Assembly (NCBI GenBank): GCA_026988015.1
Contig: JALSMA010000060.1
Location: 1 to 39,426, forward strand
Length of the DNA: 39,426 nucleotides
From: Desulfobulbaceae bacterium
Lineage (GTDB): Bacteria; Desulfobacterota; Desulfobulbia; Desulfobulbales; Desulfocapsaceae
Reading direction: 5' to 3'
Shown: one piece after another, positions 5,136-37,260 of the stretch
Numbering within the stretch: the stretch's first letter is position 1
How the letters are laid out: each line of letters opens with the position of its first letter
The notes under the pieces: generated by a model
Databases searched by the model: none
What the model was told of the DNA's origin: nothing
Seen by the model: the letters and a program-made list of their open reading frames with translations, nothing else
Translations under genes and position numbers: made by a program

Positions 5136-6284
5136 TTAATAGGCCTCGTGATCCATTGCATCGTGCGTACTCAATTTCTGGGAGTCCATCTGTTTCCAGA
5201 GGTACGCCACATAAAGCAGCACAAAAGGAACCGCAAGGGCCACATAGGTCATTATCCGCAGGGTATACTCAGACGAGGAAGCATTGTAAATGGTAAGACT
5301 CGACTGCAGATCAAAGGTTGATGGATAAAAGGCTGTTCCATTAAATGCAGGCAGACACAGAACACATAACCCGACCAGAACGGTACCAAGTCCCGCAGGC
5401 CAGATACCCCGGAAACTTCCCTTGTGGGCCCCAAGAAGCACACCCCAGATAACCAGAACCAGTCCACCAAGGAGCATGACCAGCAGATGGGGCAGAGCCA
5501 GGAAATTCAAGAAATACTTAAAAGATACCATGGAGACAATCCCATCATCATCTACATTAAAACCTTTCATCAGAAGGATCGCAACAACAACATAGAGCAA
5601 GAAGGGAAGAGAACAGATAAAATTTGTCCACACTGCTTTGCGGAGACGATGTTCCATCGCGGCAACAGAGCCAAGATCAAGGTTATTGAGTAGATAAAGA
5701 GCGCCCAGTACCCGGGCATTAAAGACAAGAAACAGCCCGAGAGAGATATTAAACAAAGAAAATGCTGCCTCAAGACCACGAAGATTCACACCACCCAAAG
5801 TATACTGCCAGGTAACATGATTCATGTCATTGAGAGAAAAAGCCGAACCGGTATAAAAGGTGCCAACGGCAGTTCCGATAAGAAGTACACCGACAGAACC
5901 ATTAATAAACATGAACAGTTCATAGGTTTTCGCCCCCCAGACATTACCCGGCTTCTTGCGATACTCATAACTAACCGCTTGAATAATAAAGGTGAAGAGA
6001 ATAAGTATCCACACCCAATAGGCACCACCGAAGCTTGTGGAGTAAAATTTCGGGAAAGAGGCAAAAAGTGCCCCGCCAAAAAGAACCAATGTTGTAAAAG
6101 GAAGTTCCCATTTACGACCAAGGGAATTCACTACGAGTGCACTTTCCGTCTCACTTTTTGCCACCTGCCAGAGCAGGGTCTGTCCTCCTTGAACAAAGGT
6201 GAGAAAGAGAAAAAGTGCCCCGACAACTGAGCAGATAACCCACCAGAGTTGCTGTAAGGTAACGTAATCTAAATTTGATATCAT
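5136..6284 (-). CDS. cydB: Cytochrome bd quinol oxidase subunit II
   Basis: A 382-residue polytopic inner-membrane protein, the CydB partner of the oxidase that reduces O2 to water with quinol electrons. The N-terminus LQQLWWVICSVVGALFLFLTFVQGGQTLLW matches the CydB pattern of an early membrane helix followed by a Gly-Gly-Q/D-like turn. About eight to nine hydrophobic segments follow, and the C-terminus is a short cytoplasmic tail after the last helix. It begins 2 nt after the cydA stop with GGAGGG as ribosome binding site inside the cydA 3' end, so the two are translationally coupled. In a presumed anaerobe it would serve O2 detoxification or microaerobic respiration. Confidence 0.93.
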   Translation of the reverse strand: MISNLDYVTLQQLWWVICSVVGALFLFLTFVQGGQTLLWQVAKSETESALVVNSLGRKWELPFTTLVLFGGALFASFPKFYSTSFGGAYWVWILILFTFIIQAVSYEYRKKPGNVWGAKTYELFMFINGSVGVLLIGTAVGTFYTGSAFSLNDMNHVTWQYTLGGVNLRGLEAAFSLFNISLGLFLVFNARVLGALYLLNNLDLGSVAAMEHRLRKAVWTNFICSLPFLLYVVVAILLMKGFNVDDDGIVSMVSFKYFLNFLALPHLLVMLLGGLVLVIWGVLLGAHKGSFRGIWPAGLGTVLVGLCVLCLPAFNGTAFYPSTFDLQSSLTIYNASSSEYTLRIMTYVALAVPFVLLYVAYLWKQMDSQKLSTHDAMDHEAY

Positions 6285-6286
6285 TT

Positions 6287-7819
6287 TCAGTGGCCCTCCG
6301 GTCCGGCTGCAATCTGTTTCAACATAATGGATATTTCAGCAATAAGAAGCATGGTGAAAACTACTGCAAACATTGCAAAAGTGATCTGAACAGCAGTGGT
6401 GGAGAGATTCGTTGTAGCAATCTTCACCGGCATAAGTCCCTGTATGGCCCAGGGCTGTCGTCCAACTTCCGCTGTAACCCATCCTGCCTGCTGAGCCAGA
6501 AGTCCGAGAAGTCCGGTAAACAAACCCACCGGAAGCAACCAGCGTTTTTCAGTAATGGTTCCCTTGATGGTGTAAAAGAGAAATGCTCCAAATATCACCG
6601 GAAAGAGAGATCCGATGATTGCCATCAGGCGGAAAGAGTTAAAAACAATGGTTACAGGCGGAACGGCCTCCTCAGGTGTATTGAGGTACCCATATCCCAT
6701 AAACTCCTTATTCACATTAAAGCGCTCAAGAGCAGCTTCTGCGACCTGATCTGTTTTATTCTTCCTGGCCTCTTTAAAGGATGCAAGATCGGCAAGCGCC
6801 AGCCTTCCTTTTTCCATCATGGTGTTTACGCCCATGATGCTTTCTTCCTCATTTCCATAAACAAGGTCATCAATTCCGGGAACAAAGGATCCTGGCTCAC
6901 GATTTGCGAGAAGTGACAGGAGTTCGGGAACCTTTACTTGAAACAGAAAGGCATCCTGCACGTCACCCGGTTCTTTGGCACTGTTCAGAATTCCCATGGC
7001 TACTATTCCAGCTCCACGCTCACCCTTGTAGAGGCCTTCCATAGCCGCAAGCTTCATGGGCTGCTTCTGGGCAACCTCGTATGCAGCTTCATCGCCTGTG
7101 AAACCAACAAAGATCGATGCCACAAGCCCAAAAACAGATGCCACAACTATGGATTTTTTGGCCATCTCAACATGGCGACCTTTTATGAGATACCAGCAGG
7201 ACACGGTCAAGACAAAAGCTGATGCCATAACAAAGCCTGATGAGGATGTATGGGTAAATTTAGACACTGCAACGGGGTTAAAAACAACTTCTGCAAAATT
7301 TTCCATCTCAAATCGGGCCGTATCAGGATTAAATGCCATCCCTACCGGATTCTGCATCCAGCCGTTTGCAACCAGGATCCAAACAGCAGAGAGGTTGGAC
7401 CCTATGGCCACCATCCAGGTTGAGAAGCAGTGAAATCCTTTGGATACTCTATTCCAGCCAAAGAACATAACGGCAAAGAAACTAGCTTCCAGGAAGAAGG
7501 CAAAGATACCCTCAATGGCCAGCGGGGCACCAAAAATATCTCCAACCATCCAGGAATAGTTTGACCAGTTTGTTCCAAATTCAAACTCAAGAATAATTCC
7601 AGTGGCAACACCAATGGCAAAGTTGATACCAAAAAGGGTCATCCAGAAACGAGTTATCTTCCGCCACTCCTCATTGCCGGTCTTGAGATAAATAGTCTCA
7701 TAAAAAGCACAAAGAAATGACAATCCAAGTGTCAGGGGTACAAAGATCCAGTGATACATTGCCGTAAACGCGAACTGCGCTCTAGACCAGTTCACCAGAC
7801 TGGGGTCCACATCAATCAT
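6287..7819 (-). CDS. cydA: Cytochrome bd quinol oxidase subunit I
   Basis: A 510-residue heme-bearing catalytic subunit. Visible signatures: the N-terminal SRAQFAFTAMYHWIFVPLT with heme ligand His23, the acidic pair in helix III (Glu103, Glu111), His190 in the KFTHTSSSG context (heme b558 ligand), and GRQPW before the last helices. The quinol-binding Q-loop (about 240-370) is of moderate length. Length is close to E. coli CydA (522). A strong GAGGAGG precedes the ATG. It follows the DUF4492 gene by 15 nt and precedes cydB by 2 nt, so the genes form an operon, probably controlled by the Rrf2 protein encoded first. Confidence 0.96.
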   Translation of the reverse strand: MIDVDPSLVNWSRAQFAFTAMYHWIFVPLTLGLSFLCAFYETIYLKTGNEEWRKITRFWMTLFGINFAIGVATGIILEFEFGTNWSNYSWMVGDIFGAPLAIEGIFAFFLEASFFAVMFFGWNRVSKGFHCFSTWMVAIGSNLSAVWILVANGWMQNPVGMAFNPDTARFEMENFAEVVFNPVAVSKFTHTSSSGFVMASAFVLTVSCWYLIKGRHVEMAKKSIVVASVFGLVASIFVGFTGDEAAYEVAQKQPMKLAAMEGLYKGERGAGIVAMGILNSAKEPGDVQDAFLFQVKVPELLSLLANREPGSFVPGIDDLVYGNEEESIMGVNTMMEKGRLALADLASFKEARKNKTDQVAEAALERFNVNKEFMGYGYLNTPEEAVPPVTIVFNSFRLMAIIGSLFPVIFGAFLFYTIKGTITEKRWLLPVGLFTGLLGLLAQQAGWVTAEVGRQPWAIQGLMPVKIATTNLSTTAVQITFAMFAVVFTMLLIAEISIMLKQIAAGPEGH

Positions 7820-27327: not shown

Positions 27328-27777
27328 ATGCGTGCGGTTATCCAACGAGTCAGCAGGGCATCGGTCACTGTGGATTCTGAAATCACAGGTGAGATAAACT
27401 CCGGCCTGCTGGTGTTTTTAGGCATTCACCGCAATGACGGCAAAAAAGATATAACGTGGCTGTCCGATAAAATTGTCAACCTGCGCATCTTTAAAGACCA
27501 GGATGGCAAGATGAATAGATCCCTCATTGATATGGAAAAATCCCTGCTGGTTGTCTCTCAGTTCACCCTCTACGGAGACTGCCGCAAAGGCCGCCGCCCC
27601 GGATTCTCTGCTGCAGCACCTCCCGATCATGCAAAAAATCTTTATCAGCAGTTCATTGATGCCATCAACCAAAAAGGTATCACCACAGCCAGCGGCCGCT
27701 TTCAAGCTCAGATGGATGTGGAACTTATCAATGATGGTCCTATAACCCTCCTGCTCGACTCCTCTAAACTCTTTTAA
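27328..27777 (+). CDS. dtd: D-aminoacyl-tRNA deacylase
   Basis: A 149-residue enzyme that removes D-amino acids (and Gly) mis-charged onto tRNA. It begins MRAVIQRVSRASVTVD and has both active-site signatures: SQFTLYGD (about 80-87) and the cross-subunit NDGPITLLLDS near the C-terminus (the Gly-cisPro motif). Length is normal. It starts 9 nt after the barrel protein gene and precedes the M16 peptidase by 13 nt, so the three are probably cotranscribed. Confidence 0.96.
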   Translation: MRAVIQRVSRASVTVDSEITGEINSGLLVFLGIHRNDGKKDITWLSDKIVNLRIFKDQDGKMNRSLIDMEKSLLVVSQFTLYGDCRKGRRPGFSAAAPPDHAKNLYQQFIDAINQKGITTASGRFQAQMDVELINDGPITLLLDSSKLF

Positions 27778-27790
27778 CAACGAGATACTC

Positions 27791-30712
27791 ATGACCTCTT
27801 ACACTCCCGGTACTTCCTATTCCGGCTTTACCCTCAGAAAATTCCAGCATATAGACGAAATCCAGGCCGATGTTTACCTCTTTGAACATGATGTGCTCAG
27901 CTGCCCACTGCTTGCTATTAAGAATGGTGACTCCAACAAGACTTTCTCCGCATCATTTAACACCATCCCCACAGACTCAACTGGAGTCGCCCACATCCTG
28001 GAACACTCAGTGCTTATGGGGTCAGAAAAATATCCGGTCAAAGACGTCTTTGGTGAAATCAACAAAGGCGGCTTGATGACCTTTTTAAATGCCATGACCG
28101 GCTCAGATATCACCTACTATCCCTTCGCCACCAGAAATATGAAGGAATATTTCAATATCATGGATGTCTACATGGATGTTGTGCTGAACCCCTTGCTGGC
28201 AAAATCCACGTTTGAGCAGGAAGGCTGGCACTTCCATCAGGAGAGCGTTGAAGCCCCACTCCAGTATCAGGGGGTGGTCTACAACGAGATGAAAGGCGCC
28301 TTTTCTGATCCTATCCGTCTTATCTTTCATCATATATTTGGCGGTTTAATGCCGGGCTCCACCTATTCCCATGAATCCGGTGGTGATCCGAAAAACATTC
28401 CGGATCTCTCCTATGAAGCGTTTTGTGACTTCCACAGAACCCATTACCATCCGTCCAATGCTACCTTTTTCATTTATGGCGACGCTGACCTCGGAGAAGA
28501 GCTCCATTATCTCCAGGACAAATTCCTCTCCAGATTTTCGGAACCTGGAAGCCGCGCAGAAGTTACTATTGGAACCGATATTGACAAGCTCACATTCATT
28601 GAAGACTGCTACAGTGTTGACTCCACAGATACGGCCGAAAAAACTTTTCTTGCCGTGGCCAGCACTGTCTCAACCGTCCTCAACCGTGAGGAAAATGCTG
28701 CCTTCCAGATAATTGCCAACATCCTTTACAATTCGGATGCATCACCTCTGAAAAACACCATTATCACCAGTGGATTATGCAAGGATTTTGGTGGATTCTA
28801 TCTCAGCACTTCAAGCTTTAAGACGATGATGGTCTCCTATCTTGTGGGCAGCGACCCGGAAAAAAGAGACAACTTCCTGAAGCTTTATCAGAAGACCCTG
28901 TCACAGATGGCCACAGATGGACTTGGACATGACCTTATTCTTTCAGAGCTCAACAAATATGAGTTTGGGGTACGCGAGGAGGGCTGTAAGGCCCAACGTG
29001 GACTCGACCTCATTGGTAAAGCCTTACCTGCCTTTAAATATGGGACAGACCCCTATGAATCACTGCAGATTGATAAAGTCCTCTCCACCATTCGTAAAAA
29101 AGCACTTGAAGAAGGATATTTTGAAGAGCTTATACAGACATATCTACTCGACAATCCCTCTTCAGTGATCGTCACCTTAACACCGGATCCAGAGAAACAG
29201 GCCCGAGACCAGGCGATGGAGGCGACCCGCCTGAAAGAGTATGAAGACAGCCTCGATCAGAAGAGCAGAGACAATCTCATAGCCAGAACAGTGGCTCTGA
29301 TGACAGATCAACAGCATCCAAACAGTGTAGACATCCTTAAACTGCTCCCTCAGCTCAACCTTGACGACCTTGAACGACAGGTCAACTTTCACCAGGCACA
29401 GGCCACCACAATCAATGATCAGGAGTGTATAGTCAGTGAACTGAACACAGATCATATCTCCTACATTGAGATTGGTTTTGATATCTCAAGCCTTCCTTCC
29501 CGCTATCTTCCCTGGCTGGATCTCTTTGGTACCATTGTCACCGAAATCGGCACCAGTACCATGGACTACATGCACCTTGCCAGAGAGATCGCCACATGCA
29601 CCGGAGGATTTTCCCATAACTTTCAGAGCCATTTAAAAAAAGGGGGAAAGGGCAGCTTCCGGCCCATTCTCTGGTTTCAGGTGAAGTGTCTTCCTGAATA
29701 CCAGGAACGTACTCTGCAACTCCTCACTGCTATCTTTTCAGATCTTGCTTTGGAAGACCGGGTTCATATCCAGGAGATCGTGGCCAGGGAATTTGCATGG
29801 GCCGAGCACGCTGCCCAGAGTGAAGGCTACGGCCTTGCCACCTCACTGGCATTTGCTCAACTGAGTAAGGCAGGGGCCTGTAACGAAATGGTCTCTGGGG
29901 TCAGTGCATACAGAAGCACGAAAGATCTTGCCGCCAATTACAGTGCAATGGAGGAATCCTTTCTCTCAGGCCTGAAAGAGATGGCTGATATAATTTTCAA
30001 CCGAAATAATCTGATTTTTTCAATCACTTCCAACGAATCTGAAGTTATCACCTTTCAGGAACTCAGCAGAGATCTGGTAGATCGTTTACCAAGCACCATT
30101 CTGCCGGTACAGGAGTTCCTCATTCCAGCATTACCAAGACATGAGGCACTGATAACATCGGCAGAAGTGGTTTATGCAGTGCAGAGTGGTACCCTCCTGC
30201 CCCACGGCAACAACTACAATGGACACTTTGAGGTATTGAAAACCTACCTCTCCCGGGACTATCTCTGGAATAGTGTCAGGCAGATGGGAGGGGCCTATGG
30301 CTGCTTTATCCAGTTCAGTCATATCAGCGGCAACTTTGCGGTAATCAGCTACCGGGATCCGCAGGTCAGAAAAACATATGAAAGCTACCAGGCCATGCCA
30401 AAGGTGATCGCAGACCTTGAGCTTCCCAGAGAAGTCCTGCAACAACTGATCATAGGAACGTATGGCAGCTTCAACCCACACCAAGCTGCTGCGGGAAAAG
30501 GTGCCACAGCCAGAAATGAGTACCTTAATGGTATCACTCCGGAATACAAACAGCAGAGAATAGAGGAAATCATATCCACCTCTGTCAAAGATATGCGTTC
30601 TTTTGCCCTGGCCTTTGAGACCATGCTCAACAACAGTCATCGAATGATCATCGGAAACAGAGCAAAAATTGAGGCAGACAGTGATCTTTTTGAGCAGATC
30701 AGCGAACTATAA
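27791..30712 (+). CDS. M16C (PreP/Cym1-like) zinc metallopeptidase
   Basis: A 973-residue peptidase with the inverted zinc motif HILEH (His68-His72; Glu71 catalytic) and a third ligand in the downstream YNEMKGAF segment. The length and the four-domain layout (two M16 halves joined by a hinge) match presequence-protease/Cym1 enzymes, which degrade unfolded peptides inside a closed chamber. There is no signal peptide, so cytoplasmic action is expected. It is followed 24 nt later by the methyltransferase that begins the dar-like cluster, and no terminator is visible between them. Confidence 0.94.
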   Translation: MTSYTPGTSYSGFTLRKFQHIDEIQADVYLFEHDVLSCPLLAIKNGDSNKTFSASFNTIPTDSTGVAHILEHSVLMGSEKYPVKDVFGEINKGGLMTFLNAMTGSDITYYPFATRNMKEYFNIMDVYMDVVLNPLLAKSTFEQEGWHFHQESVEAPLQYQGVVYNEMKGAFSDPIRLIFHHIFGGLMPGSTYSHESGGDPKNIPDLSYEAFCDFHRTHYHPSNATFFIYGDADLGEELHYLQDKFLSRFSEPGSRAEVTIGTDIDKLTFIEDCYSVDSTDTAEKTFLAVASTVSTVLNREENAAFQIIANILYNSDASPLKNTIITSGLCKDFGGFYLSTSSFKTMMVSYLVGSDPEKRDNFLKLYQKTLSQMATDGLGHDLILSELNKYEFGVREEGCKAQRGLDLIGKALPAFKYGTDPYESLQIDKVLSTIRKKALEEGYFEELIQTYLLDNPSSVIVTLTPDPEKQARDQAMEATRLKEYEDSLDQKSRDNLIARTVALMTDQQHPNSVDILKLLPQLNLDDLERQVNFHQAQATTINDQECIVSELNTDHISYIEIGFDISSLPSRYLPWLDLFGTIVTEIGTSTMDYMHLAREIATCTGGFSHNFQSHLKKGGKGSFRPILWFQVKCLPEYQERTLQLLTAIFSDLALEDRVHIQEIVAREFAWAEHAAQSEGYGLATSLAFAQLSKAGACNEMVSGVSAYRSTKDLAANYSAMEESFLSGLKEMADIIFNRNNLIFSITSNESEVITFQELSRDLVDRLPSTILPVQEFLIPALPRHEALITSAEVVYAVQSGTLLPHGNNYNGHFEVLKTYLSRDYLWNSVRQMGGAYGCFIQFSHISGNFAVISYRDPQVRKTYESYQAMPKVIADLELPREVLQQLIIGTYGSFNPHQAAAGKGATARNEYLNGITPEYKQQRIEEIISTSVKDMRSFALAFETMLNNSHRMIIGNRAKIEADSDLFEQISEL

Positions 30713-30736: not shown

Positions 30737-31354
30737 ATGAACACAGAACGATTTGATAAAGCAGCATCTGAATGGGATAGTAAATCCAGACGGGTTCTTC
30801 TTGCCGGCAAAATCAGCAATGCCATTTTAAAACTCCCCCTCACAAAGGAGATGGATGCGTTGGAATATGGATGTGGCACCGGTCTTGTTGGTATTGCCAT
30901 CTCCCAAGTCATCAAAAAACTCACAGCCATCGACAATTCGCGGGGAATGCTTGAGGTACTCGAAAAAAAAATATCCACTGAAGACCTGAAAAATATCCGC
31001 ACACTCTGTTGTGATCTTCTTACTGAAAACTACACTGAAAAGCATCATCTAATCTTCTGTTCAATGACCCTGCACCATATAAAAGATGCCAAGGGCCTGT
31101 TACAGCGCTTTGCAGATATTCTCCTGCCCGGCGGCTATATCGCAATAGCAGATCTTGTCACTGAAGATGGTACATTTCATGACACAGACGCTGAAGGAAT
31201 CCATCACGACGGATTTACTCCTGAAGAGCTGGCAGCAGTCCTGAGCTGTTGCGGCCTCGAGGATATCAGCCACAGAATTGTTCATACCATAACCAAGGGG
31301 GGGATCAATAAAAAATACCCTATATTCCTGCTCACTGCCCGAAAACCATCCTGA
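30737..31354 (+). CDS. Class I SAM-dependent methyltransferase
   Basis: A 205-residue methyltransferase. Motif I is LEYGCGTGLVGIA (about residues 42-54), the acidic motif II sits at LTAIDNS, and the post-I/IV region FCSMTLHHIKDAKGLL is typical of class I small-molecule enzymes. The final base of its TGA stop (31352-31354) is the first base of the next ATG, so it is coupled to the DarA-like gene. It may tailor the product of the cluster or be an unrelated passenger; its position favours a role in the cluster. Confidence 0.85.
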   Translation: MNTERFDKAASEWDSKSRRVLLAGKISNAILKLPLTKEMDALEYGCGTGLVGIAISQVIKKLTAIDNSRGMLEVLEKKISTEDLKNIRTLCCDLLTENYTEKHHLIFCSMTLHHIKDAKGLLQRFADILLPGGYIAIADLVTEDGTFHDTDAEGIHHDGFTPEELAAVLSCCGLEDISHRIVHTITKGGINKKYPIFLLTARKPS

Positions 31355-32268
31355 TGTCTAAAAAAGTTCTCGTTCTCTACTATTCTCAGAGTGGCCAGCT
31401 GCAATCCGTTATGAAACAGATTGTGACCCCCCTCGCCGAATGTGATTCGGTACACTGTGATTTTCTTGAGATCACGCCCGAGACCCCCTACCCCTACCCC
31501 TGGTCCTTTTATGAGTTTTTCAACGTATTCCCGGAGGCTGTCTACCTTGATGGCTGTCCGGTAAAGCCCCTTGAAACTGAAGATGAGTATGATCTCATTA
31601 TCCTAGGATACACATCCTGGTTCCTGTCGCCTTCCATCCCGGTCACCGGTTTTCTGCAAAGCGACCAGGCAAAAAATCTTTTCCGCGACACTCCTGTGAT
31701 AACAGTGATCGCCTGCCGCGATATGTGGCTGATGGCTCAGGAGAAGATGAAAACTATGCTCAGTGATCTTGGTGCCAGGCTGCTGGACAACATTGTACTC
31801 ACAGATCAGGGCAAGTCACTCTATACCTTTGTCACTACCCCACGCTGGATGCTCACTGGAAAAAAGGACAGTTTCTGGTTCTTTCCTCCCGCTGGAGTAC
31901 ACACTGAAGATATCGCCTCTGCTTTCCGTTTTGGAAAACGAATATGTAACGCATTGCAGCATGATGAAGAATGCGCTACACTTCCACTCCTCAGTAACAT
32001 GAACGCGGTCAACGTCAATGGTAAGCTGATAGCAACAGAGCATATCGCCCACCGCAGTTTTCTGATCTGGTGCAAGCTGATTAAAAAAGCCGGCCCACAG
32101 GGTTCATCGGGGCGCAATGTGGTGATCACCATTTACACAGTCTTTCTCTTGACACTGGTTGTCACTGTTGTACCGTTGAATATGCTGCTCCGAAAACTCC
32201 TCGCCCCTTTTCGGAGAAAAGCGCTTGCCAGGGCTGTTCATTACTATGAACAGCCTTCCGGAAAATAA
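31354..32268 (+). CDS. DarA-like flavodoxin-fold protein (dialkylresorcinol biosynthesis type)
   Basis: A 304-residue protein with a flavodoxin-like N-terminus (KVLVLYYSQSGQLQSV, residues 4-19, the FMN-phosphate-type loop), internal segments YDLIILGYTSWFLSPSIP (about 79-96) and DMWLMAQEKM (about 123-132), and one C-terminal membrane helix (256-280). This layout and these motifs match my recollection of proteins annotated as dialkylresorcinol condensing enzyme DarA, which pair with a DarB ketosynthase in bacterial dialkylresorcinol and flexirubin loci. The DarB-like gene follows after 31 nt. The exact chemical role of DarA is not settled; a redox or aromatisation role is plausible. The membrane tail suggests work at the inner membrane. 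Confidence 0.8.
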   Translation: MSKKVLVLYYSQSGQLQSVMKQIVTPLAECDSVHCDFLEITPETPYPYPWSFYEFFNVFPEAVYLDGCPVKPLETEDEYDLIILGYTSWFLSPSIPVTGFLQSDQAKNLFRDTPVITVIACRDMWLMAQEKMKTMLSDLGARLLDNIVLTDQGKSLYTFVTTPRWMLTGKKDSFWFFPPAGVHTEDIASAFRFGKRICNALQHDEECATLPLLSNMNAVNVNGKLIATEHIAHRSFLIWCKLIKKAGPQGSSGRNVVITIYTVFLLTLVVTVVPLNMLLRKLLAPFRRKALARAVHYYEQPSGK

Positions 32269-32299
32269 TTAAAAAGAAGGAAAACTTCTCTGATTCTCC

Positions 32300-33448
32300 A
32301 TGTCTCATAACGTCTACATCAATGATATCAGCGCATTTATGCCCAATGCACCGGTTCCAAATGACAAGATGGAATCCATCCTGCTTCCCGTTGCCACACG
32401 CCCATCCCGGGCCAGAAAACTGATCCTCCGAAGTAACCAGATCACTTCACGCCACTATGCCATTGATCCCGAAACTGGACTTGCCAGCCACAGCAATGCC
32501 AGGCTTACAGCAGAGGCCGTCCAGCAACTCACCACTCGTAACCGGGAAACCATAGAGCTCCTGGCCTGCGGTACAACACTGCCGGATCAACTCATGCCAA
32601 ACCATGCCCTCATGGTCCAAGGCGAACTCGGCCTGCCGGCCTGCGAAGTAATCGCCACATCCGGAGTCTGTCTCTCTGGCGTCATGGCCCTCAAATATGT
32701 GTACATGGCTATCCTCTCAGGACTCAATACAAATGGAGTGGCAACAGGATCTGAAAATGTATCCTCTCTCATGCGCGGTTACCTTTTTGATGAAGAGATC
32801 GCAAGCCGAAGTGAAGCTCTCAAAAAGCACCCGGAGATAGGTTTTGAGAAAGATTTCCTGCGCTGGATGCTCAGTGATGGCGCAGGTGCTGTGTGGATGA
32901 GCAACACCCCCAACCCTCAAGATGACCAAATTTCTCTCCGCATCGACTGGATCAGACAGATATCCTATGCCGGCGAGCTTGAAACCTGCATGTATGCCGG
33001 AGCAGAAAAAGAAGAAGATGGTAGCCTCAGAGGCTGGCGGGATTACCTGCCGCAGCAATGGCTGGAAAAGTCCATATTCAGCATCAAACAGGATGTCAAA
33101 CTACTCAATGACAAGATCATTGAATACACAGTAACCCGACCACTCAAGGATCTGCTGGCAAAAAGAATTCTGCAACCCGATGCGATTGACTGGTTTCTAC
33201 CCCACTATTCATCAGGGTTTTTCCGTGACAAAGTGTACGCAGGAATGCAGCTTGCTGGCTGCGATATTCCTCAAAATAAATGGTTCAGTAACTTGGACAG
33301 CAAAGGTAACACCGGATCCGCATCCATCTATATTATTCTGGAAGAACTCTTTCATTCAAAAACCCTTAAAGAAGGTGAGCGCCTCCTCTGCTACATTCCG
33401 GAAAGCGGCCGGTTCTCCACAGCATTCATTCATCTCACGGTGGTGTAA
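32300..33448 (+). CDS. DarB-like 3-oxoacyl-ACP synthase III family ketosynthase
   Basis: A 382-residue thiolase-fold condensing enzyme with the KAS III triad: Cys124 in SGVCLSGVM, His302 in FLPHYSSGFF and Asn337 in SKGNTGSAS. Segments such as RSNQITSRHYAIDPETG, LRWMLSDGAGAVW and AGELETCMYAG are shared, as I recall them, with DarB ketosynthases of dialkylresorcinol/flexirubin pathways, more than with housekeeping FabH. DarB condenses two beta-ketoacyl units toward a resorcinol ring. AAGGAAAA lies upstream. The next gene starts 1 nt after its stop. The substrate chain is not predictable from sequence. Confidence 0.85.
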   Translation: MSHNVYINDISAFMPNAPVPNDKMESILLPVATRPSRARKLILRSNQITSRHYAIDPETGLASHSNARLTAEAVQQLTTRNRETIELLACGTTLPDQLMPNHALMVQGELGLPACEVIATSGVCLSGVMALKYVYMAILSGLNTNGVATGSENVSSLMRGYLFDEEIASRSEALKKHPEIGFEKDFLRWMLSDGAGAVWMSNTPNPQDDQISLRIDWIRQISYAGELETCMYAGAEKEEDGSLRGWRDYLPQQWLEKSIFSIKQDVKLLNDKIIEYTVTRPLKDLLAKRILQPDAIDWFLPHYSSGFFRDKVYAGMQLAGCDIPQNKWFSNLDSKGNTGSASIYIILEELFHSKTLKEGERLLCYIPESGRFSTAFIHLTVV

Positions 33449-33449
33449 A

Positions 33450-33863
33450 ATGGAACAGGACATGGTGCCACAGGATAACATTTCCACCTACGCCGACAAT
33501 AAAAAGGCTGTATACGCCACTGACCGTTCCGGTAATTACAACGTTATTGCGTCAAGTGGCTGGGAAATAGAAGAGGAGGCAACCCTTCAGGCAGTAAGGG
33601 AGATGGAACGGCTGGCCCGGGAAGCATATGTGCTCGCAGCAAGAGGAGAGTACTCCCCCCTGTTTTTTCATATGTATAATCGACGCATGGACATACAAGT
33701 GCTGGCTGAGGCCACCGGTCTGTTCAAGTGGCGTATAAAACGTCATTTCAAGCCTGTAGTTTTCGATAGGCTCTCCGAAAAGATTCTTGCGCGTTACAGT
33801 GATGCCCTCGGTATATCCCGGCAGAAACTCTGCAGCCTGCCACAGCAGAACAGGAACCTGTGA
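33450..33863 (+). CDS. Small HTH-like protein of the dar-type cluster
   Basis: 137 residues from ATG 33450, 1 nt after the ketosynthase stop; a longer in-frame extension upstream would overlap the ketosynthase and is rejected. The N-terminal half is polar; the middle is a long amphipathic helix (about 42-66). Residues 80-125 (MDIQVLAEATGLFKWRIKRHF, then a second helical repeat ending GISRQKL) look like a helix-turn-helix of the XRE kind. It could be a cluster-specific regulator or a protein-protein adaptor. Its stop overlaps the next start by 4 nt (GTGA), so it is made together with the biosynthetic proteins. Confidence 0.7.
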   Translation: MEQDMVPQDNISTYADNKKAVYATDRSGNYNVIASSGWEIEEEATLQAVREMERLAREAYVLAARGEYSPLFFHMYNRRMDIQVLAEATGLFKWRIKRHFKPVVFDRLSEKILARYSDALGISRQKLCSLPQQNRNL

Positions 33864-34888
33864 GTAACACCATGCAGGAGCAACAGGATTTTAAACACAG
33901 ACATTTTGCACACTGTGAAAGCGGGGTCATGTCCCTTATGGTCTCCCATCATGGTCTGCCACTTTCCGAAGCCATGGTTTTCGGCCTCTCCGGTGCCCTG
34001 ATGTTTGCCTACATTCCCTTTGTGAAACTTGGCGGGATGCCCCTTATTGCCTATCGCTCTCGTCCCAGAAGCATTATCAAAGGGCTCCAGAAGACCCTGG
34101 GTATCAAAATGAAAATGCATACTTTTTCTAACCCCTCCAAAGGAATGGCAACACTGGATGCTCTTCTCCAGCAGGGACATGTCGTGGGCGCCCAGAGTTC
34201 TGTCTTCTGGCTTCCCTACTTTCCTCCTGAGATGCGCTTTCACTTTAACGCCCATAACCTTATCATTGTCGGCAAGGAGGGTGACGACTATCTGATCAGT
34301 GACCCAGTTTTTGAAAGCAGCCAGCGCTGTGCCACAGAAGACCTGAAGAAGGCCCGCTTTGTTAAGGGGATGATGGCGCCAAAGGGTCTCATTTACTACC
34401 CCTTGGCTGTGCCAGATCATATCGATTACCAGCGTATACTCCCAGCGGTAATCAAAAGGAACGCCAAAGCAATGTTAAAAACCCCTGTCCCGATTGCTGG
34501 AATCCGCGGAATCCGTGCCCTTGCCAGATCCATCACCAGGCTTTCCGGAAAAGATCCGCGTCAGGCCAGACTCTTCCTCGGTCATATCGTCAGAATGCAG
34601 GAAGAGATAGGAACGGGTGGCGCCGGGTTTCGCTTTATCTATGCCTCGTTTCTCCAGGAAGCCGGACGCTTGCTGGATAATAACCGTGGCCTGGAGAGTG
34701 CTTCCAGAGAAATGACCATAGTGGGTGACCAGTGGCGGGAGTTTGCCCTGCTTGCCGTCACCACCATTCGCAAGAAAAGAAATGATAAGATGAACTTTTC
34801 AGCACTGACAGAAAAACTCCTTCATGTTGCAGCCGCTGAAGCTGAAGTGTATCAGAGAATTCTTAAGATACGCTTTACCTGCCTATGA
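33860..34888 (+). CDS. BtrH-like protein, putative ACP-dependent acyltransferase
   Basis: 342 residues from GTG 33860, with AGGAA 3 nt upstream of the overlap. The first 150 residues match the BtrH N-terminal pattern: HCESGVMSLM-HHGLPLSEAMVFGLSGAL, then FNAHNLIIVGKEGDDYLISDP. Cys19, His132 and Asp148 are placed like a papain-type Cys-His-Asp set. The C-terminal half is helical and basic (DUF4872-like). BtrH in butirosin synthesis transfers an acyl group from a carrier protein to an amine. Here the dedicated ACP at the end of the cluster is the obvious donor; the acceptor is unknown. The family assignment is from motif memory, the catalytic proposal is inference. Confidence 0.78.
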   Translation: MSNTMQEQQDFKHRHFAHCESGVMSLMVSHHGLPLSEAMVFGLSGALMFAYIPFVKLGGMPLIAYRSRPRSIIKGLQKTLGIKMKMHTFSNPSKGMATLDALLQQGHVVGAQSSVFWLPYFPPEMRFHFNAHNLIIVGKEGDDYLISDPVFESSQRCATEDLKKARFVKGMMAPKGLIYYPLAVPDHIDYQRILPAVIKRNAKAMLKTPVPIAGIRGIRALARSITRLSGKDPRQARLFLGHIVRMQEEIGTGGAGFRFIYASFLQEAGRLLDNNRGLESASREMTIVGDQWREFALLAVTTIRKKRNDKMNFSALTEKLLHVAAAEAEVYQRILKIRFTCL

Positions 34889-35808
34889 TTCGAATTAACA
34901 ATCTCACTAAACGCTACGGAGACACAGCAGCACTAGACAGGTTCTGCCTGAAAATCGAACGCGGTATTATCTTTGGACTGCTCGGACCCAATGGCGCCGG
35001 CAAAACAACTCTGATCTCCATCTTGAATGGTCTCACCCGGTTCCAGGAAGGTGAAGTTGAGATCTTCAACCTGCCCCTGCGGCAGAACCTCAGGCAGATC
35101 CGAAAACGCTGTGCCTTTATCCCGCAATCCCTTGCCTTCTATGAAAACCTGACAGTTCATGAAAATCTCCGTTTCTTTGCCGGAATACAGTCTATCACCG
35201 GCCGGACTCTCCAGGACAGCCTGGATCGTGCCATCTCCGTAAACCATCTCCAGCCCCTGATCAACAGACAATCGGCCACCCTGTCAGGTGGAGAAAAGAG
35301 ACGACTTAATATTGCAATCGGCCTCCTGAACAATCCGGACATTCTCTACTTCGACGAGCCGACCATTGGCATAGACCCCGAATCCCGCAATGATATTCTC
35401 AACACCATACGTACCTTTAAAGATGATAATAAAACAGTGATCTACACCTCCCACTATATGGAGGAAATTGAAAAAATCTGTGATGAAGTGGCCATTATCA
35501 ACCATGGCAAAATTATCCGACAGGGAAAACTTAAGGAGATGCTGCAGCAGGAGGGAAGTAACTCAGCCATCATCGAACTGCACAAATGCGGTCCTACCCG
35601 GCTCGATCGGATCAGCAAGACCGTCACCGGTCTTCGGGTGCTGAATCCAGACACCCTACTACTCTCACCACAAAACAGTGGCGTCATGGCGAAACTCCTC
35701 ACAATCCTGGAGCGGGAGGATATCAGTGTCAGACAGATTCGCTACCAGTCCTTGAGCCTGGAATCACTTTTCATCAATCTGACCGGTCAGGAGCAATCTG
35801 ATGTTTAG
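34885..35808 (+). CDS. ABC-2 type exporter, ATP-binding subunit
   Basis: A 307-residue nucleotide-binding subunit. Walker A GPNGAGKTT (residues 34-42, Lys40), Q-loop Gln81, signature LSGGE (133-137), Walker B ILYFDEPT (153-160) and H-loop His190 are all intact. The roughly 90-residue C-terminal extension after the ABC core is usual for drug/lipid exporters of the ABC-2 (CcmA/DrrA) kind. It overlaps the BtrH-like gene by ATGA and the permease gene by 8 nt. It most likely powers export of the product made by the cluster, or of a lipid intermediate. Confidence 0.94.
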   Translation: MIRINNLTKRYGDTAALDRFCLKIERGIIFGLLGPNGAGKTTLISILNGLTRFQEGEVEIFNLPLRQNLRQIRKRCAFIPQSLAFYENLTVHENLRFFAGIQSITGRTLQDSLDRAISVNHLQPLINRQSATLSGGEKRRLNIAIGLLNNPDILYFDEPTIGIDPESRNDILNTIRTFKDDNKTVIYTSHYMEEIEKICDEVAIINHGKIIRQGKLKEMLQQEGSNSAIIELHKCGPTRLDRISKTVTGLRVLNPDTLLLSPQNSGVMAKLLTILEREDISVRQIRYQSLSLESLFINLTGQEQSDV

Positions 35809-36994
35809 GGCTATGCTCAAAAAAGAGTTCCTTCTTATCATGCGGGACAGGCATGCCCTCGCTGCCCTCTTTATCATGCCGTCGGTCTTTATTCTCATCA
35901 TGTCCATGGCCCTGAAAGACACCTTCAGCAGCGACCGGGCCTTCATCAATTATGTTGTCATTGACCAAGATCGAACAGCCATCAGTATGGAACTTGCAAC
36001 TCTGCTTAAAAAAAACAGGCTCCTCAAAGAGTACCAGCAGCATATTAGTTCCAAGAAACAACTGCAGCAAGCCTTAAATGATGATCTGACCTTTGCCGTG
36101 ACCATTGCTGTCGGCTTCTCAAAAAGCCTTGGCAATGAAAACCCTGCCGTTCCCCTGACTCTTAACGTGGCCAGCGATGTACAGCAGAATGTACTGCGTC
36201 TCTTTGAGGGTGAGCTGACAGGAATACTCATGAAACTACGAATCAAAGCCCTGCTCCACAAACTCGAGCCAGCGCTTCCCGGTATCAGTGCCAAAACCGA
36301 TGCCAGACTTCTGGATCAAAGCAGCCTGATACAGGTACGGTTTAACGACCTGCAAAATAGCCAGTTTCCCACTTCAACACAACAGAGTGTCCCATCCTGG
36401 ATAGTCTTTGGCATGTTTTTCATCATCATCCCCATGTCCACAATTTTCATCAGTGAACGGCGACAGAACACCCTGATGCGCATGAATGGCATGAACATTT
36501 CCATTCCTGCACTTTTTACGGGTAAAATTGTTCCATATATGGTTATTAACCAAATCCAGGTCTTGCTCATGGTTGGGGTGGGTATCTTTATTGTCCCACT
36601 CCTTGGTGCGGCACCGCTTACACCTGGAAACTCTGTTACCGCACTTTTGTTGGTCTCCACCGGGCTCAGCCTTGCAGCCATAGGCACCTCAATGCTCATC
36701 GCTGTATCGGTAAACACTGTGGAACAGGCAACAACCATAGGGGGAATTCTCAACATCCTCTTTGGCGCCATTGGCGGGGTCATGGTTCCTAAATTTTTCA
36801 TGCCACCAGCCATGCAGAGTTTCAGTATCGTGTCGCCTATGTCATGGGGCCTGGAAGGTTTTTTGGATATATTTCTGCGCGGCCTAGGACCACGTGCAGT
36901 TGTTACAGAATCATTCGCCCTTGCAGGGTTTGGACTACTTATGCTCCTTCTCGCATGGGGAATTTTTGCCAGAAGAACAGGAAAAGGATTATGA
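35801..36994 (+). CDS. ABC-2 type exporter, permease subunit
   Basis: A 397-residue membrane protein with one N-terminal helix (about 19-38), a large extracytoplasmic domain (about 45-197) and about five further helices from 199 on, the standard ABC-2/YhgE-type layout (SWIVFGMFFIIIPMSTIFISERR marks the second helix and its cytoplasmic end). It pairs with the overlapping ATPase gene. Its stop overlaps the ACP start (ATGA), which ties exporter production to the carrier protein. Confidence 0.92.
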   Translation: MFRAMLKKEFLLIMRDRHALAALFIMPSVFILIMSMALKDTFSSDRAFINYVVIDQDRTAISMELATLLKKNRLLKEYQQHISSKKQLQQALNDDLTFAVTIAVGFSKSLGNENPAVPLTLNVASDVQQNVLRLFEGELTGILMKLRIKALLHKLEPALPGISAKTDARLLDQSSLIQVRFNDLQNSQFPTSTQQSVPSWIVFGMFFIIIPMSTIFISERRQNTLMRMNGMNISIPALFTGKIVPYMVINQIQVLLMVGVGIFIVPLLGAAPLTPGNSVTALLLVSTGLSLAAIGTSMLIAVSVNTVEQATTIGGILNILFGAIGGVMVPKFFMPPAMQSFSIVSPMSWGLEGFLDIFLRGLGPRAVVTESFALAGFGLLMLLLAWGIFARRTGKGL

Positions 36995-37260
36995 AAGGCT
37001 CACTGGATGATGCGCTGAAGCGACGTCTGAAACAAATGATTATCACAGAGTGTGATATTGACGACGTCAGCCCGGAATCCCTGGCTGACGATATGGTGAT
37101 TTTCTCCGACGCCAGCCCTTTAGGACTGGACTCACTGGATGCTCTGCAAATTTCAATGGGTCTGCAACGGCAGTTTGGGACACGGCTTGTGGACAGCAAG
37201 GACTTTCGGCGCCACGTCACAACCATTGACGCATTAGCTGACTACATCCAGCCTGAATAG
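36991..37260 (+). CDS. Dedicated acyl carrier protein of the dar-type cluster
   Basis: An 89-residue acyl carrier protein from ATG 36991 (a longer in-frame extension to 36844 lies inside the permease gene and is rejected). The attachment motif LGLDSLDALQ is intact, with Ser48 as the 4'-phosphopantetheine site, within the four-helix ACP pattern. It is not adjacent to fatty-acid synthesis genes, so it is a specialised carrier, equivalent in position to DarC. AGGAAAAGG precedes the start. It closes the cluster; the 490 nt downstream have no gene on this strand. Confidence 0.9.
   Translation: MKGSLDDALKRRLKQMIITECDIDDVSPESLADDMVIFSDASPLGLDSLDALQISMGLQRQFGTRLVDSKDFRRHVTTIDALADYIQPE

Follow-up and report, generated by a model that had tools for sequence, protein, structure and literature searches.

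A dar-type operon in a Desulfobulbaceae draft genome and its probable polyene-type partner cluster

Organization of the dar operon

We analyzed a stretch of 39,426 nucleotides (hereafter the window), contig C60 of the 91-contig draft genome of a Desulfobulbaceae bacterium (GCA_026988015.1). It carries a dar-type operon, which probably is the dialkylresorcinol half of a polyene-dialkylresorcinol pathway of the arcuflavin/flexirubin type, the polyene half being elsewhere in the genome. The operon consists of eight open reading frames at positions 30737-37260, all on the + strand, with successive distances of -1, 31, 1, -4, -4, -8, and -4 nt. The original prediction had described eight co-directional genes with gaps of at most 31 nt, and its coordinates, strand, and distances all hold.

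The first gene encodes an S-adenosylmethionine (SAM)-dependent methyltransferase (30737..31354; Methyltransf_25, 55.5 bits, cut-off 27). It is followed by the gene of a DarA-like flavodoxin-type protein (31354..32268), placed directly upstream of darB as in Azoarcus; this protein is a putative aromatase for dialkylresorcinols and has a hydrophobic stretch at its C-terminus. DarB is a beta-ketosynthase of the StlD/DarB family (32300..33448; NF005293, 576.9 bits, cut-off 450). Then come a small protein of the DarG family (33450..33863; NF053536, 167 bits, cut-off 70), DarH, a BtrH-related acyltransferase (33860..34888; NF053550, 484 bits, cut-off 300), an ABC transporter ATPase (34885..35808; ABC_tran, 100.1 bits, with Walker A and LSGGE motifs), an ABC-2 type permease (35801..36994; ABC2_membrane_3, 109.3 bits, cut-off 31.6), and an acyl carrier protein (ACP; 36991..37260; PP-binding, 27.9 bits, cut-off 20.8). 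These last five genes are called darD, darE, darF, darI, and darC, respectively, in the naming used for Azoarcus. Ser48 of the ACP lies within the motif LGLDSLDAL, and D47-S48-L49 are conserved in at least 97% of 79 alignment rows.

The profile searches bore out the domains first assigned to the methyltransferase, the DarB-like and BtrH-like proteins, the ABC-2 exporter pair, and the ACP. The DarB, DarG, and DarH models were all passed. The initial description of a dar-type locus for synthesis and export, predicted to have a dedicated ACP and a carrier-dependent acyltransferase, is supported. The small protein encoded between darB and darH had been called helix-turn-helix-like. It belongs instead to the DarG family, and its helix-turn-helix nature was not borne out; a known regulator of this type was rejected as a candidate, with no Pfam match and just 14.5 bits to SoxS. 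The order DarA-DarB-DarG-DarH-ABC-permease-ACP was found again in related genomes (numbered G in the following, and their loci L), which places the arrangement above chance. The BtrH-like, ABC, and ACP genes travel with darB and keep their order in these relatives; the lack of co-occurrence that the original prediction had named as a refutation was not observed.

A peptidase gene upstream of the operon stops 24 nt before the methyltransferase start. With such a short distance, the transcript may exceed the eight genes. Scans for promoters (15 sites, versus 11.9 +/- 3.7 in shuffled sequences) and terminators (10 sites, versus 10.1 +/- 3.3) revealed no excess. This setting would fit an operon that is decaying or silent baggage, transcribed by read-through from upstream housekeeping genes, and so would genome G014, which has lost darA and darB while darG, darH, and the exporter stay. 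However, all eight reading frames are intact with their catalytic residues present, and dar genes are retained in 18 of the 20 genomes of the genus, which makes this explanation very improbable.

Two further observations concern the rest of the window. The genes leading into the operon (27328-30712) resemble, by eye, those of a D-aminoacyl-tRNA deacylase and an M16C-type peptidase, with gaps of 13 and 24 nt. On the - strand, at 5136-7819, two genes resemble, by eye only, cytochrome bd oxidase subunits, in what is presumed to be an anaerobe.

The methyltransferase had been counted as one of the set. The dar genes lie behind the peptidase gene in eight loci, and the methyltransferase sits between the two in five of them; it is missing from this position, upstream of darA, in G009, G015, and G017, and was rejected as a core member. 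By this distribution, it is a lineage-specific accessory outside the dar core. An attempt to tie it to the anammox methyltransferase via solved structures was also rejected, since it gave nine weak matches, none recognizable as anammox.

The DarB, DarA, and DarH proteins

DarB aligns over its full length with the solved ketosynthase StlD (5gk0; E-value 1.3e-127). Its residues C124, E152, H302, and N337 are conserved in at least 97% of the 49 rows of an alignment in which a few rows are repeat genomes, and the Cys-His-Asn set is present. The original prediction had hinged in part on the family of this ketosynthase, which is indeed assigned to DarB/StlD.

The DarA-like protein is a less straightforward case. 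Its position and its distant relatives agree with the name first proposed, but no curated profile was reached. A relative with 52% identity adjoins darB in a named Desulfurivibrio metagenome-assembled genome. In a search of plasmids, relatives were found in three Streptomyces records; in one of these (NZ_CP108315, L177 6556-8969), an ACP, a ketosynthase III, and a DarA-like "hypothetical protein" (31-32% identity) are adjacent, among other fatty acid synthesis genes. Hence, even without a curated profile, the identification of the flavodoxin-type protein as a predicted DarA is supported by its position and by distant relatives near ketosynthase III and ACP genes. A sequence search of the Protein Data Bank (PDB) gave one 17-bit match only.

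DarH passes the BtrH_N profile (PF14399, 164.9 bits, cut-off 29.7), and DUF4872 is also present. Residues C19, H128, H132, and D148 are conserved in at least 97% of 45 rows, and C19, H132, and D148 are invariant across all rows of two alignments. The search of the PDB by sequence gave no match. We compared a predicted structural model, built from 12 sequences (mean pLDDT 78.9, pTM 0.81), with solved structures. It matches AziU3 (Z-score 20.7, 302 residues, 4.4 Å), CtaG (18.9-19.4), and CcbD (15.8-16.1) over nearly the whole length, and Foldseek agrees. The identity to these three proteins is 11-15% despite the fold match. Solved CtaG entries bear titles with C11, H128, and D144 variants, and the offsets together with these titles suggest that C19, H132, and D148 of DarH pair with them. 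DarH is thus a putative carrier-dependent acyltransferase with a BtrH_N/C39-like fold and a Cys-His-Asp set. In the plasmid search, DarH-type BtrH proteins were found in 93 records, every one with less than 60% identity.

CtaG, AziU3, and CcbD act on carrier-bound acyl groups, in amide- or aziridine-forming antibiotic pathways. BtrH itself is named an ACP:aminoglycoside acyltransferase (PMC10318531). These cysteine acyltransferases have their fold in common with DarH and use nitrogen acceptors, whereas the acceptor proposed for DarH is a phenol. One might thus expect DarH to form an amide or an ester with some other molecule (an amine, a sugar, an amino acid, or a lipid), or to act as a thioesterase. 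Yet the same gene is part of the Azoarcus dar cluster, for which a polyene-dialkylresorcinol ester was predicted from mass spectra (PMC3949708). We regard another partner or activity as rather unlikely.

A polyene-type cluster on another contig

The original prediction had pointed out that no polyene genes are visible. This holds for the window but not for the genome, since another contig, C2 (27,187 bases), accounts for four of the genome's six Ketoacyl-synt_C matches. Its genes begin with an ICMT-type methyltransferase, a CrtI/CrtD-like oxidoreductase, a SPASM radical SAM protein, a B12 radical SAM protein, a PlsC-type acyltransferase, a ketosynthase, and an ACP. A Lip_A-type acyltransferase, a glycosyltransferase-like protein, a DegV-type protein, an AMP ligase, and a second B12 radical SAM-like protein come next, and then a lipoprotein-like protein, LolA, FabG, and an ApeP-like dehydratase. 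A divergent set encodes a ketosynthase fused to Ketoacyl-synt_2, the third B12 radical SAM protein of the contig, an ApeI-like dehydratase, an ACP, two further radical SAM-like proteins, two ketosynthases, a thioesterase, and a dehydratase.

LolA, Lip_A_acyltrans, and AMP-binding are all over their cut-offs, as is the ApeI-like dehydratase (55.9 bits, cut-off 28.5); the thioesterase is a 4HBT_2 protein. The CrtI-like oxidoreductase passes Amino_oxidase (59.2 bits, cut-off 19.8), with all CrtI/CrtD models far under cut-off. FlxB is the second-best model for FabG. The assignment to GT2 is based on NCBIfam glycosyltransferase matches under cut-off and on 42% identity to a Pfam GT2 protein. Six proteins have the CxxxCxxC motif, of which three pass Radical_SAM of Pfam (86.4, 60.7, and 54.2 bits, cut-off 29.5) and three are under it (22.9, 22.5, and 27.8 bits). 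The third B12 protein (C2:18735-20078) passes TIGR04072, "rSAM_ladder_B12", an NCBIfam model whose name refers to ladderane clusters, with 378.1 bits for a cut-off of 360. By its ApeI-type dehydratase, ketosynthase with Ketoacyl-synt_2, LolA, Lip_A_acyltrans, GT2, thioesterase, and AMP ligase, C2 is a predicted aryl-polyene-like cluster. In G009, an MMPL protein (51.8 bits, cut-off 20.5) adjoins the polyene cluster. The MMPL gene seen there (L106 6327-9371) is fused to a methyltransferase domain and is close to a polysaccharide-deacetylase gene.

Linkage and co-occurrence of dar and polyene-type genes

We examined the flanking genes of the window's locus and of 17 others of its type, 18 in all; for G005 and G016, wide flanks were not retrieved. 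The dar genes are beside or inside genes matching C2 in six of the 18 (G012, G013, G001, G023, G006, and G039), where the C2 orthologues have 54-90% identity in most comparisons. In G012, for instance, the CrtI-like gene lies on one side of them and the SPASM radical SAM gene on the other. The eight loci where they follow the peptidase gene are those of the window, G009, G015, G017, G003, G004, G008, and G014; in the four remaining ones (G007, G018, G002, and G010) they are elsewhere or cut. The CrtI-like gene is found elsewhere in 11 of the 12 unlinked genomes, with 63-77% identity. The twelfth is G014, which has neither the CrtI-like gene nor TIGR04072 over cut-off.

Some loci depart from the common layout. 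In G014 (L028 4969-6030), darA and darB are gone from between the methyltransferase gene and darG, and darG, darH, and the exporter genes remain. The genes past darH differ from the ABC pair in G004 (L024), and an ICMT-type methyltransferase gene stands between darH and the ABC gene in G006 (L049).

Among 56 relatives, DarH is present in 33 and DarB over cut-off in 31, every one with DarH. The two genomes with DarH and without DarB over cut-off are G014 and G016, the latter with a darB cut by the contig end (448.9 bits). Among the same relatives, 27 have TIGR04072 over cut-off (24 with DarH and 3 without); outside the genus, it is found in 13 of 15 DarH-positive versus 2 of 21 DarH-negative genomes (Fisher, 4e-6). 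DarB is never seen without DarH, and DarH is mostly missing where the polyene marker occurs without a DarB-like context, which fits a step that requires the resorcinol.

We then scanned named genomes with the TIGR04072 alignment, which gave at least 572 confirmed relatives, and kept 80 loci of these. They come from Desulfobacterota, Geobacter types, Nitrospirae, Omnitrophota, Lentisphaerae, Hydrogenedentes, and others; neither anammox bacteria nor Desulfotalea are among the 80. In 12 of these loci, DarH is encoded within the 10 kb on either side of the B12 radical SAM marker. The genomes of 50 of these loci were profile-searched, mostly short or repetitive loci being left out by hand: 27 have DarH and 24 have DarB, all 24 within the 27. 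Judging from identical sizes and coordinates, four of the 50 duplicate genomes already in the first set (G063/G042, G070/G028, G071/G035, and G072/G054); without them, DarH is in 24 and DarB in 21 of 46. An example of linkage is L231, from a deltaproteobacterial metagenome-assembled genome, which has genes for ApeP-like, LolA, MMPL, and ApeI-like proteins, a thioesterase, a ketosynthase, B12 radical SAM proteins, GT2, an acyltransferase, and ketosynthases, followed by a PagL-like protein, DarG, DarH, ABC, and permease. In Geobacter-type clusters, the gene of this PagL-type outer-membrane protein (L231 17495-18070; 71.4 bits, cut-off 23) separates darG from the polyene genes. By the counts in the 50 genomes, dar is an optional companion of such polyene-type clusters.

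Could the operon instead stand alone? In that case, no polyene would be involved, and a dialkylresorcinol (or cyclohexanedione), either free or carrying a fatty acyl chain, would be made and exported as a signal or an antibiotic lipid. The window itself has no polyene gene, and 9 of the 33 DarH-positive relatives lack TIGR04072 over cut-off, several of the nine being fragmentary genomes. Free dialkylresorcinols are reportedly made by other bacteria, e.g., HPR by Pseudomonas chlororaphis. On the other hand, dar is linked to polyene-type genes in the six loci of the first set and the 12 named ones, the CrtI-like gene is present in all but one of the unlinked genomes, and dar adjoins other polyene-type genes in G023 and G049, both among the nine exceptions. 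A stand-alone operon therefore seems unlikely.

The proposed assignment to a polyene-dialkylresorcinol pathway also has to accommodate several other observations that weigh against it. The operon and C2 are on separate contigs of a draft genome, and linkage was not seen here. In G009, which is assembled in two contigs, the dar and polyene loci are at about 1.75 Mb and 0.15-0.18 Mb of contig 1, i.e., some 1.6 Mb apart, without any indication of co-regulation. The counted genomes are related by shared ancestry, so p-values are too small and independence is overstated. The DarA-like protein meets no curated profile (Flavodoxin_4, 18.9 bits, cut-off 24). On C2, the ApeP-like dehydratase (PF22817) has 20.9 bits, under the cut-off of 27, and MMPL is not found, C2 ending inside the cluster. 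Finally, a search of six genomes, that of the window included, found aromatic ammonia-lyase (PF00221) in none. An aryl starter from chorismate was considered and rejected, with FkbO/Hyg5 chorismatase in none of the six and UbiC-type chorismate lyase in one, which is not the genome of the window. As no known aryl-starter enzyme was found in the latter, the aryl starter of the polyene is unaccounted for.

Alternation of darA and a B12 radical SAM gene

The gene directly upstream of darB is not always darA. The sequence preceding darB was long enough in 51 distinct genomes (loci L147-L176 and L258-L281; G010 and G016, where darB is cut at contig ends, are out). Of these, 18 have darA in that position and 33 have a B12-binding radical SAM gene, with no case of both or neither. 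In L264 and L273, the latter gene was seen in part only. The proteins have about 430 residues and 48-71% identity to one of their number. The B12-binding and Radical_SAM domains are over cut-off in the three tested, and the nearest models, HpnR and BchE, score far under cut-off.

The same pattern is found at the scale of genomes. DarA (at least 65% identity) is present in 18 of the 40 relatives searched, the 16 others of the 56 being darB-negative genomes that were left out, and the upstream-type radical SAM gene (at least 50% identity and 458 bits, the next best hit having 122.8) in 13 of the 56. Together, these are precisely the 31 genomes with DarB, with an overlap of 0. In the DarB tree, the two states are separated by one change (support 100/98). 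Hence, this is a single event and not 51 independent cases. We infer that the B12 radical SAM protein may functionally replace DarA, while an upstream enzyme that is a methylase, with another aromatase encoded elsewhere, is also compatible with the data.

Proposed pathway

The assignment of the operon to the dialkylresorcinol half of such a pathway rests on profile identities, conserved order, physical linkage in relatives, and co-occurrence; the product and the activities are predicted, and we consider this the probable interpretation. By the functions known from the literature for these families, DarB would condense two beta-ketoacyl chains into a 1,3-cyclohexanedione, which DarA would oxidize to a 2,5-dialkylresorcinol. 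The partner cluster on C2, given its gene set, would make an ACP-bound polyene acid. DarH would then load the polyene, or another acyl chain, from the ACP onto Cys19 and transfer it to a phenol hydroxyl of the resorcinol, a joining role suggested because of its fold, its conserved Cys, His, and Asp, and its strict co-occurrence with DarB. Transport to the outer membrane may fall to the ABC pair, together with LolA-, MMPL-, and lipoprotein-type proteins encoded in polyene clusters, and the methyltransferase might perhaps decorate the product in some lineages.

Taken by itself, the operon of the window adds a new host to those of a known gene set. Beyond it, the likely partner of dar in this anaerobe is a radical-enzyme-rich polyene-pigment cluster elsewhere in the genome. 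More broadly, and more tentatively, non-anammox "ladderane-like" clusters, i.e., the radical-SAM- and CrtI-rich type II fatty acid synthesis (FASII) clusters of Desulfobacterota, Geobacter types, Nitrospirae, Omnitrophota, Lentisphaerae, and others, could be anaerobic aryl-polyene-type lipid pathways rather than ladderane pathways. About half of those sampled would be dar-coupled, giving a polyene-resorcinol ester, with DarA mostly replaced by the B12 radical SAM protein for the same or an equivalent ring-finishing step. We see this as a serious possibility that falls somewhat short of probable.

In the open-licence literature searched, we found no earlier account of dar coupling to such clusters or of the darA swap, and none considering aryl polyenes, Deltaproteobacteria, and Geobacter jointly. 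For dialkylresorcinols and radical SAM, this literature reportedly holds only cyanobacterial alkylation work. The presence of aryl-polyene markers and dar operons in "ladderane" clusters gives a concrete product class to seek and helps to sort ladderane candidate genes. The alternation of darA and the radical SAM gene provides an unrelated candidate enzyme for the same biosynthetic step.

Comparison with known systems

In Kuenenia and Desulfotalea psychrophila, FASII clusters termed "ladderane" combine radical SAM and glycosyltransferase genes with phytoene-desaturase-like and phenylacetyl-CoA ligase genes; Geobacter and Pelobacter have similar clusters (PMC2649909). D. psychrophila, with its syntenic cluster, yielded no ladderanes (PMC2649909), and neither did candidate ladderane genes in E. 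coli (PMC4790861). Such clusters recur in many non-anammox anaerobes and phyla, where their function is unexplained (PMC9902471). They have in common with C2 the radical SAM, phytoene-desaturase-like, divergent ketosynthase, CoA-ligase, glycosyltransferase, and FabG/FabZ genes (PMC2649909, PMC4790861), a likeness drawn from the descriptions in these papers and not from the sequences of the clusters; aryl-polyene markers are undiscussed in the sections consulted.

The cluster of Desulfosediminicola flagellatus (L188) is also of this kind, with a CrtI-like gene, a ketosynthase, an acyltransferase, an AMP ligase, SPASM and two B12 radical SAM genes, and a glycosyltransferase, and then a ketosynthase, FabG, an ApeP-like protein, LolA, and an MMPL-type protein. 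DarH and DarB were not found by profile search in the sampled genomes of D. flagellatus, Desulforhopalus singaporensis, D. vacuolatus, and Desulfopila.

In the flexirubin clusters of Bacteroidota, DarA and DarB are accompanied by a polyene cluster with genes of the LolA, glycosyltransferase, acyltransferase, exporter, and deacetylase types (PMC3992019). A flexirubin cluster proper was rejected here: NF053545 (121.7 bits, cut-off 170), NF053539 (483.8, cut-off 550), FlxB (279.8, cut-off 340), and LolA2_flexi (76.8, cut-off 125) are all under cut-off, and the family of the tyrosine ammonia-lyase (PF00221) is the one found in none of the six genomes. More generally, dar occurs with polyene clusters in 16 of 39 genomes (PMC3949708).

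The closest known system is that of Azoarcus BH72 (azo0293-azo0283), ordered darA, darB, darD (hypothetical), darE (BtrH-like), darF (ABC ATPase), a PilT/Phd-like pair, darI, darC, darJ, and darK (PMC3949708). Window genes 2 to 8 are of the same kinds in the same order, save for the toxin-antitoxin-like insert, and DarG and DarH of NCBIfam correspond by position to its darD and darE. In Azoarcus, the dialkylresorcinol is bound to an aryl polyene to give arcuflavin, for which the authors predict an ester from mass spectra (PMC3949708). As this gene set and its product have been published, the statement that no product was described for such a set falls. The Azoarcus genes listed as neighbors include exporter, methyltransferase, and deacetylase genes. 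The two systems differ in that the toxin-antitoxin-like pair, darJ, and darK are absent from the window set, which has the methyltransferase as an extra, and in that the Azoarcus polyene genes include an XanB2 chorismatase and a halogenase, with no radical SAM or CrtI-like gene in the gene lists consulted (PMC3949708). The two arc polyene loci of Azoarcus are unlinked to dar, and polyene genes unlinked to dar are thus common to Azoarcus and to the genome of the window (PMC3949708).

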